From Bryobacteraceae bacterium (GTDB taxonomy: Bacteria > Acidobacteriota > Terriglobia > Bryobacterales > Bryobacteraceae): 64,000 nucleotides of DNA. The notes under the pieces were generated by a model. It made no database searches, was not told the origin of the DNA, and saw only the letters and a list, made by a program, of their open reading frames with translations. The DNA lies in NCBI GenBank assembly GCA_030041495.1, contig JASHNT010000140.1, positions 1 through 64,000 of the forward strand. The letters are read 5' to 3'. The number at the start of each line of letters is the position of its first letter. The first letter of the stretch is position 1. A program made the position numbers and the translations under genes. Positions 1 through 50,738 of the stretch are shown here, in pieces.

Positions 1-81
1 CCAGCCTCCGTTGTGCTGGCGAACTGCTTAGAAGCTTCATGCTTTCATCATACACACGTTATGCTGGTGTGGACCTGGCGA

Positions 82-12347: not shown

Positions 12348-12423
<76 letters not shown>

Positions 12424-49849: not shown

Positions 49850-50341
49850 TCAGGGTGCGGCAGCAGGTGCGGAGGCGGGACCAGGCGAGGACGCGGCCGC
49901 CGACACCGGATGCTGCGCGACCGCCGGTTTCGGAATCACTTTCAAGCGGACCTTTACGATGCCGTCGCGAACCATTTCGATGCGCTCAGCCGCGCCCATC
50001 GAGAGATCGATGATGCGTCCATGGATGAACGGTCCACGATCGGTGACGCGCACATCGACCTGCTTTCCGTTTTTCAGATTAGTGACCTCGACCCAGGTGT
50101 TGAAGGGCAGCGTGCGATGCGCGGCGGTCATCGCGCGCATGTCGAACACTTCGCCGGAAGCAGTGCGGCGGCCGTCGTAAGGGACTCCGTACCAGCTCGC
50201 GATGCCGCTTTCGGTCCATCCGAGAGGCGCGGGAGCAGCGGGAACCGGCGCCCGCGCGGAGTTGCGCCGTCCGCACCCTGTCACGGCGGCGAGAGATGCG
50301 GCGAGTAGCGCCGCGACCGCGTAAATCGGCCTCCCGGACAC
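49850..50341 (-). CDS. rlpA: RlpA-family septal ring lytic transglycosylase (lipoprotein)
   Basis: 163 residues. A lipobox ends at the cysteine of LAAVTGC, so it is an outer-membrane lipoprotein. The double-psi beta-barrel has [19 protein letters not shown] (catalytic region), [14 protein letters not shown] and [16 protein letters not shown]. The usual SPOR domain is absent. It cleaves naked glycan strands at division sites in other bacteria. GTG start. Confidence 0.9.
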
Positions 50342-50400
50342 TAAAACAATTCTACATGAGGATGTTCTTTAGGTGTTTCCGCCTCCTCAAGGGGTATGCG

Positions 50401-50412
50401 CGGAGGTCTCCG
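50401..50412. repeat. Small palindrome upstream of the basic-peptide gene promoter
   Basis: CGGAG-GT-CTCCG is a perfect 5-bp inverted repeat ending 25 bases before the -35 box. It could be an operator for that promoter, or a fold in the divergent rlpA leader. Only the symmetry is seen directly. Confidence 0.35.
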
Positions 50413-50437
50413 TGTTCTGGCTGCATTCATTTTTTTC

Positions 50438-50466
50438 TTGACTTTCAACGCAAAGAACCTTATAAA
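50438..50466 (+). promoter_or_regulatory. Strong sigma-70-like promoter for the basic-peptide gene
   Basis: TTGACT (50438-50443), a 17-base spacer and TATAAA (50461-50466). Each hexamer differs from the consensus at one position, and the spacing is ideal. Transcription would start near 50473, leaving a leader of roughly 57 bases. This is the best promoter match I see in the window. Confidence 0.8.
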
Positions 50467-50529
50467 GAAGACACAACCGCGCTTGCTCTCTGAGTGGCGC
50501 GTAATCTGATGTAAAGGGAGAATCACTCG

Positions 50530-50595
50530 ATGAAGAACGCAACGAAGAAAAAGGCGCCGGCTAAGAAGAAGGCTGCCCCGAAGAAAAAGAAGTAG
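50530..50595 (+). CDS. 21-residue lysine-rich basic peptide (histone-H1-tail-like)
   Basis: ATG 50530 to TAG 50595. Composition: 12 Lys, 4 Ala, 2 Pro, one each of Met, Asn and Thr (MKNATKKKAPAKKK at the N-terminus). AAAGGGAG lies nine bases upstream, a strong promoter about 60 bases before that, and an intrinsic terminator 36 bases after. The sequence pattern is that of the tails of bacterial H1-like and Lys/Ala-rich nucleoid proteins, but it is complete in 21 residues. DNA or RNA binding is inferred from charge. A dual-function small RNA is possible. Confidence 0.7.
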   Translation: MKNATKKKAPAKKKAAPKKKK

Positions 50596-50631
50596 TAGCC
50601 ACGGCGCTCTAGAAGAGCGAGTTTGAACTTG

Positions 50632-50663
50632 ACGGCCCCGAGCAATCGGGGCCGTTTTTATTT
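50632..50663 (+). terminator. Strong intrinsic terminator after the basic-peptide gene
   Basis: A perfect 10-bp stem ACGGCCCCGA/TCGGGGCCGT with a GCAA tetraloop is followed by TTTTTATTT. The T-run lies only on the plus strand. It bounds a transcript of about 185 bases with the promoter at 50438-50466. Confidence 0.9.
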
Positions 50664-50738
50664 GTGTGGACGTTGTTTTGGCGGGGAAGCCGCGCGGTGA
50701 GAGGTGGGAGCGCACAGGCCCGAAGCCGTTGTGCGCGA

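Follow-up and report, generated by a model that had tools for sequence, protein, structure and literature searches.

A conserved stand-alone gene for a very short lysine-rich peptide in Acidobacteriota, a candidate minimal nucleoid-condensing protein

The window, meaning the whole stretch of 64,000 nt of Bryobacteraceae DNA that was analysed, carries on its forward strand a compact transcription unit that combines a promoter, a structured leader, a very short reading frame and an intrinsic terminator. The features of this unit are as follows.

50429..50437, + strand: T-rich tract ATTTTTTTC, UP-element-like, abutting the -35 element on its upstream side; invariant in 30 aligned loci save for one column (25 T, 5 C)
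50438..50466, + strand: promoter with -35 TTGACT (50438-50443), a 17-nt spacer and -10 TATAAA (50461-50466); read directly and supported by the 30-locus alignment
50473..50529, + strand: predicted 5' untranslated leader, its start placed 7 nt past the -10 element from the promoter position
50478..50501, + strand: 5' stem-loop near the predicted mRNA start; from folding of 89 leaders and compensatory changes
50503..50526, + strand: conserved leader block including the Shine-Dalgarno sequence GGGAG (50516-50520, read directly); about 90% column identity
50530..50595, + strand: reading frame MKNATKKKAPAKKKAAPKKKK, 21 codons and a stop (ATG at 50530, TAG at 50593-50595); read directly and supported by codon-position tests
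50596..50630, + strand: poorly conserved 3' untranslated spacer; 58% column identity
50631..50663, + strand: intrinsic terminator with a GNRA tetraloop and a T-tail; from hairpin search, alignment and covariation

A first-pass annotation of this DNA had described a near-consensus promoter with a 17-bp spacer, a ribosome site, a 21-codon Lys/Ala/Pro frame and a stem terminator with a T-run, together forming a compact, autonomous-looking transcription unit. All of these elements were recovered, and the unit as a whole is supported by its anatomy and its conservation. The -35 and -10 hexamers each have five of six matches and are conserved in relatives. An automated promoter scan reported no promoter at 50438-50466, because the scan requires T as the final base of the -10 element and A is present here. 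The terminator hairpin (50631-50656) has 11 pairs, of which 8 are G-C, and a loop of 4, followed by a T-rich tail. Since three terminator-like sites were found in the 2-kb region and 2.6 are expected by chance, the hairpin by itself is no evidence, and the evidence lies in its conservation. The 5' hairpin and the conserved T-tract before the -35 element were absent from the first-pass annotation. Between the 5' hairpin and the Shine-Dalgarno sequence lies a TGATGT block (50503-50515), near-invariant in the aligned Bryobacteraceae and neither Shine-Dalgarno nor coding; a further small hairpin occupies this position in many Acidobacteriaceae leaders. The 3' spacer contains a small stem, CGCTCT/AGAGCG, in the genome of the window. 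The minus strand of the region has mechanical ORFs only, including 50341-50715 and 50523-50645.

The gene is flanked on one side by a divergent gene with a lytic-transglycosylase domain (PF03330) and on the other by a convergent thioredoxin-like gene, beyond which lies a nucleotidyltransferase gene (PF00483); these neighbours are presumably of the rlpA, tlpA and galU types, respectively. The rlpA-type gene adjoins the unit in 27 of the 30 best loci. Across the first 62 kept loci listed, with one representative annotated per neighbour cluster, the representatives were a thiolase (PF00108), a UvrD-type helicase/nuclease (PF00580, PF12705), a CAAX-protease-like protein (PF02517), an RNA methyltransferase (PF04452), a Methyltransf_28 protein (PF02636) and one protein without a Pfam match. 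These clusters are mutually unrelated and the neighbours vary by lineage.

Conservation was examined with the DNA of 50400-50680 as the query, and loci were retrieved without any demand on the reading frame. The unit was matched in 22 of the 23 genomes of the genus, own genome included (E<=1.2e-28), the sole genome without a match being 65% complete, and in 33 of the 38 other genomes of the family (E<=1e-5). The unit is conserved beyond chance. In the 30 best loci of this DNA-similarity search, the ORF encodes 19-27 aa. The genome to which the window belongs (6.1 Mb, 144 contigs) has a single copy of the full unit, and three further matches there to R1, a sequence-only model running from promoter to stop, are Lys-rich stretches only. 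R1 gave near-full-length matches in other families of the class. Over the phylum it matched 171 of 396 genomes at E<=0.01; these matches were not counted as members because many of those listed cover the Lys-rich part only and some lie in long H1-like ORFs.

The design was also searched as the pattern GGGAGAAT-(3..10)-ATG-(0..6)-GCNACNAARAAR, which is present in 94 of 299 genomes of the class (some of them through long paralogues of 74-114 aa) and in 0 of 299 for the reversed control. The exact pattern was not found in the other 205 class genomes, nor in any of the eight genomes of a sister family (f3), and the unit in its exact-pattern form is not universal in the class. By pattern scan, the same design occurs in Bryobacteraceae, Acidobacteriaceae and other Acidobacteriota, and isolates such as Edaphobacter modestus and Granulicella rosea (Acidobacteriaceae) carry the gene. 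A scan with one genome per species gave at least 118 stretches (L070-L187), of which 93 were kept, all from Acidobacteriota among the matches listed, and 25 were dropped. The dropped stretches had the motif out of frame (eight, all from other phyla: L101, L107, L111, L117, L135, L151, L158, L183), were from other phyla and not Lys-rich (L074, L075, L077, L090, L100, L143), had an ORF interrupted by the locus end (L105, L114, L159, L167, L178), were long ORFs of 74-124 aa (L095, L124, L140, L141, L185), or encoded 30 aa without a promoter match (L109). L114, from a Rhodospirillaceae MAG, is Lys-rich but incomplete at the locus end, and is the sole such match outside Acidobacteriota among the matches listed. 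Counts of neighbours and terminators and some codon counts refer to the first 80 stretches (62 kept) and later counts to all 118 listed; the additional 38 stretches were concordant with the first 80. Some kept records come from the same genomes as L001-L030, and each ORF sequence entered the counts a single time. Outside the class, four stand-alone ORFs of 19-23 aa, possible homologues, were seen in three further families of the phylum (L046, L047, L056, L057); these have different upstream regions and GGAG-type sites.

The promoter is strongly conserved among relatives. Among the matches listed, TTGACN-17-TATA is present in 88 of the 91 kept loci with enough flank (88/92 if L109 is included), the spacer is exactly 17 nt in all 88 promoter-bearing loci, and 77 of these 88 have at least six T in the nine bases before the -35 element. 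Apparent 19-nt spacers were an artefact of a greedy pattern on TATATATA; the exact spacer there is 17 nt. In the 6.1 Mb of the window's genome, the combination T5C-TTGAC-N16-18-TATA has a single occurrence and is therefore a marker of this gene and not of a regulon. Column identity over 30 loci reaches 0.99 in the T-tract and -35 element; the -10 region, the leader block and the ORF each stand at 0.90, the terminator at 0.89, the hairpin at 0.67 and the 3' UTR at 0.58.

The RNA structures at both ends of the transcript are also maintained. Compared with base shuffles, 81 of 89 leaders among the loci listed have z < -1.5, with a mean of -2.8 (the window's own value is -1.42), and the sequence of the 5' stem varies among families. 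In the 30-locus alignment, 94.4% of 450 cells of the 5' stem and terminator are paired and 31 cells have changed on both sides; this covariation score was reached by none of 500 shuffles, and slid versions pair in 31-45%. A simple perfect-stem terminator was found within 110 nt in 52 of the 62 kept loci from the first 80 matches listed. The terminator loop is GCAA in the window and, judged by eye, GCAA, GAGA, GTAA, GGAA or GAAA in 22/22 loci of the genus, with TTTT or other loops in some other genera. In three relatives (L002, L008, L016; locus positions about 1710-1800), the terminator is tandemly duplicated, perfectly or nearly, and L008 has three copies with a 31-nt period, the third 71% alike. 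A pairing between the promoter T-tract and the Shine-Dalgarno region, proposed by RNAalifold for the whole 30-locus alignment, was discarded, since the T-tract precedes the start inferred for the transcript and the columns show almost no variation.

The reading frame itself carries signs of selection. The first ATGA[A/T], located 6-7 nt past GGGAGAA, opens a Lys frame that runs through to a stop in 30/30 of the best loci. In the genus set of 18 distinct 21-codon ORFs, variable columns number 4/2/16 at codon positions 1/2/3, so third positions make up 16 of 22 (binomial 1.8e-4). At the 11 Lys columns of this set the numbers are 0/1/9, with nine of ten at the third position (binomial 3.6e-4), and the codon changes required are at least 25 synonymous and 6 non-synonymous. 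If a purine-rich RNA alone were kept, exchanges of A and G should be as frequent at the first two positions of Lys codons as at the third; in the genus set, they are not.

Other length groups, drawn from the matches listed, were compared in the same way. For ORFs of the MATKK type, variable columns at positions 1/2/3 are 1/2/9 at 13 codons (p 0.004), 3/2/8 at 14 codons (p 0.035), 8/10/18 at 22 codons (p 0.028) and 4/1/18 at 23 codons (p 1e-5). For the MK type, whose groups pool genera and include the genus set, they are 8/5/15 at 20 codons (p 0.022; 0.058 on the first 80 loci), 11/10/18 at 21 codons from several genera (p 0.066, not significant), 5/2/14 at 22 codons (p 0.002) and 10/8/17 at 23 codons (p 0.044). 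Some pooled groups thus show a third-position excess that is weak or falls short of significance, which counts against frame selection; pooled genera mix shifted indels. The tests take sites as independent and ignore kinship, and L026 was counted from its 22-aa start (an ATG within the -10 element would give 41 aa). Among the loci listed, the window's peptide is encoded by at least eight different DNA versions, and the 13-residue peptide MATKKKAKKKKKH by at least six different DNA sequences. Gaps within the ORF in the 30-locus alignment are all multiples of three (3, 9, 12, 18, 21, 24); the only single-base gap lies before the ATG, and gaps in the leader and 3' UTR are of many lengths. The first-pass annotation had named conservation of the hairpin alone, and not of the frame, as the outcome that would speak against it, and the codon-position tests and the frame in 30/30 loci point the other way. 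On these comparisons, the existence of a gene, and of selection that maintains its Lys reading frame, is well supported.

Composition was analysed in 113 distinct ORFs, encoding 78 distinct peptides, from 123 loci taken from the best 30 loci and the matches listed; in pattern-scan loci, the first four codons after an optional MKx are set by the pattern and the remainder is unconstrained. Residues after Met in these ORFs are 52.5% K, 30.4% A, 6.6% T and 5.1% P, together 94.7%, and Asp, Glu and Arg are absent from all 113. Lengths range from 12 aa (MATKKKAKKKKH) to 76 aa, with a median of 21, and 109 of the 113 listed ORFs are of <=30 aa. The window's peptide has 11 Lys in 21 residues and zero acidic residues. 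The description of the whole gene as a tail holds up well: the short Lys/Ala/Pro gene is genuine and encodes nothing besides the tail. Its composition is conserved, and order and length drift. H1-type tails are thought to evolve with charge and disorder preserved and with repeats gained and lost.

Related Lys-rich ORFs were observed as well. Four Bryobacteraceae loci (L193, L197, L198 and L141, in G548, G623, G596 and G672) are paralogues of 25-97 aa with MATKK..AAPKKAA or AVKKAAPKK, and carry the same GGGAGAAT site; L193, L197 and L198 have a common, different upstream region, AAACATTTTT..CATAAT. Two very short copies at different loci were seen in one genome with 14 and 14 aa (L218 and L219, G354) and in another with 16 and 17 aa (L038 and L220, G307). 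Contigs 108 and 116 of the window's own genome (L061, L063) also contain another small K/R-rich ORF, MATKRKAPAKKKAAPKRR..., and an H1-like ORF of 112-118 aa.

Searches in family databases gave no assignment. The peptide had no match in Pfam or NCBIfam, where a short, low-complexity query gives little power, nor among PDB chains at E up to 10, with the same low power of a short query, and the best PHROGs match had only E=4. Rfam gave no match at the locus at gathering score; the only window match at that score is a tRNA gene at 12348-12420. The candidates sX6, SdsR, STnc450 and suhB were rejected as identities, all being below their own cut-offs. The best of them, sX6 (RF02225; model of 342 positions), scored 26.8 bits at the locus, with a cut-off of 40; it exceeded the cut-off in 0/61 genomes, and the locus is not among the three sX6 matches in its own genome. 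In the RF02225 consensus, as in the unit, an ATG and a stretch rich in A and G precede a terminator-like stem. The sX6 transcript of Xanthomonas is reported to have been classed at first as an sRNA, until mass spectrometry verified a protein product (PMC5559785); this history is a parallel, and the score below cut-off does not mark sX6 as a homologue. Among the papers listed on small proteins and small RNAs of Acidobacteriota, titles and opening lines of abstracts contain no description of the gene. According to the part of the source available, a global smORF catalogue extends down to 30 nt (PMC11364881).

Multiple known proteins offer comparisons. The lysine-rich tails of HU proteins (HupS/HupB), which bind DNA and vary in length, are joined to an HU domain. 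Protamines, bTHX and eL41 are tiny and extremely basic, with one cationic stretch, but are Arg-rich or of mixed composition; the present peptides have Lys and never Arg (0/113 among the loci listed). Chlamydial Hc2 is likewise a lysine-rich DNA-binding protein with length variation but is far longer, at 165-237 aa, in the accessible portion of the source (PMC2848022). As far as the available text describes them, the KPAA C-terminal domains of AlgP and PhaF of Pseudomonas share the Lys/Ala/Pro composition, predicted disorder, repeats and variable repeat number. Binding to DNA in vitro is reported for peptides made of KPAA repeats (PMC9239181).

The unit could be read in several other ways. In size and charge, the peptides are akin to tiny ribosomal proteins such as bTHX and eL41, and the gene design looks constitutive and strong, so that a basic peptide comparable to these proteins, associated with the ribosome or RNA and acting on rRNA or as an RNA chaperone, deserves consideration; an ORF of the RNA methyltransferase cluster (PF04452) is the downstream neighbour in 9 of the 62 kept loci among the first 80 listed, which may be chance. 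The database searches, whatever the low power of short queries, argue against this analogy, as do the variation of neighbours by lineage and, among the loci listed, the length of 12-76 aa and drifting order, which are unlike a docked ribosomal protein, and it is judged unlikely, though it deserves real weight. Rather improbable is a peptide that binds polyphosphate or granules, its Lys/Ala/Pro tail organising granules as in AlgP. The available text of PMC9239181 places AlgP, which is H1-like and KPAA-rich, on polyP granules and reports that it is needed for their even spacing. The AlgP described in that text joins a repeat region of 154 residues to an N-terminal domain, whereas the peptides here are mostly of 12-30 residues with no folded domain, and no polyP gene occurs among the examined cluster representatives.

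A dual-function small RNA had been suggested in the first-pass annotation and finds little support here. A regulatory small RNA with an incidental ORF would account for the compact unit with structured, covarying ends, for the weak matches to Rfam sRNA families and for the whole-transcript fold (z -2.47 relative to shuffles). It would not account for a frame under selection, nor for a 3' UTR that is the least conserved part (58%); in addition, the sRNA matches are under gathering scores, and this reading is held to be very improbable. The earlier suggestion of an antimicrobial-like peptide fares no better. A secreted or antimicrobial-like cationic peptide would be short and strongly cationic, as this one is, and the maximal helical moment is 0.65 in the one Acidobacteriaceae form analysed; it is only 0.24 in the window's peptide. 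Mean hydrophobicity is -0.44 to -0.81 in three peptides, prolines are present, bulky hydrophobic residues are rare (25 Val, 3 Phe, 3 Tyr, 3 Met and 1 Leu in the 113 ORFs among the loci listed), no hydrophobic export segment was seen by eye, no export or immunity gene occurs among the examined neighbour representatives, and the gene is kept family-wide, which leaves this reading with hardly any likelihood. The many Lys codons followed by a terminator would also suit a leader peptide for attenuation of a downstream operon, but the next gene in the window runs the other way, and by naive ORF calling (first 62 kept loci listed) the next large downstream ORF is opposite in strand in 42 of the 61 loci with a called neighbour and co-directional in the remaining 19. 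The neighbours vary, in unrelated clusters, and most of them are oriented towards the gene, which makes a leader peptide or operon partner unlikely; the consensus fold contains no antiterminator pairing, and the probability of attenuation is close to negligible.

The proposal put first, held with about even confidence, is that the unit is a free-standing gene encoding a minimal polycation of the H1 C-terminal type, presumably disordered, with nucleoid condensation as its most likely role. Compaction of DNA or RNA by the peptide, as the first-pass annotation had considered, is plausible from its sequence. The Lys/Ala/Pro histone-H1-type tail would here be made as a complete protein. The T-tract promoter, 5' stem-loop, strong Shine-Dalgarno sequence and strong terminator would give high and steady output, and both transcription and translation are predicted to be strong; 5' stem-loops of this kind can slow mRNA decay. 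The peptide would bind nucleic acid electrostatically, without sequence preference, and, once bound, would help to neutralise and condense the nucleoid. DNA is the presumed partner and is put first, with RNA or the ribosome and polyP as rivals. Against nucleoid condensation, peptides of 12-13 residues are short for condensing DNA unless abundant.

A broader and more tentative idea, which is possible although not expected, is that Acidobacteriota keep a dedicated 'micro-protamine' of 12-30 residues, made in large amounts and perhaps smaller than any other known protein that condenses the nucleoid, in which charge and not exact sequence is selected. Such a gene is easily missed by gene callers, as had been anticipated, its size being under the usual limits; genomes are normally annotated only above the 12-30-codon size of this gene. 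It is proposed that the micro-protamine was overlooked because it falls below these limits and its trypsin fragments are too small to see. A conserved gene of 12-30 codons would rank with the smaller free-standing protein genes for which selection is clear. The carriers include isolates of Edaphobacter and Granulicella, which makes laboratory testing possible, and, if condensation of DNA or RNA is true, the gene would offer a minimal natural test of charge-only action in a bacterial cell.
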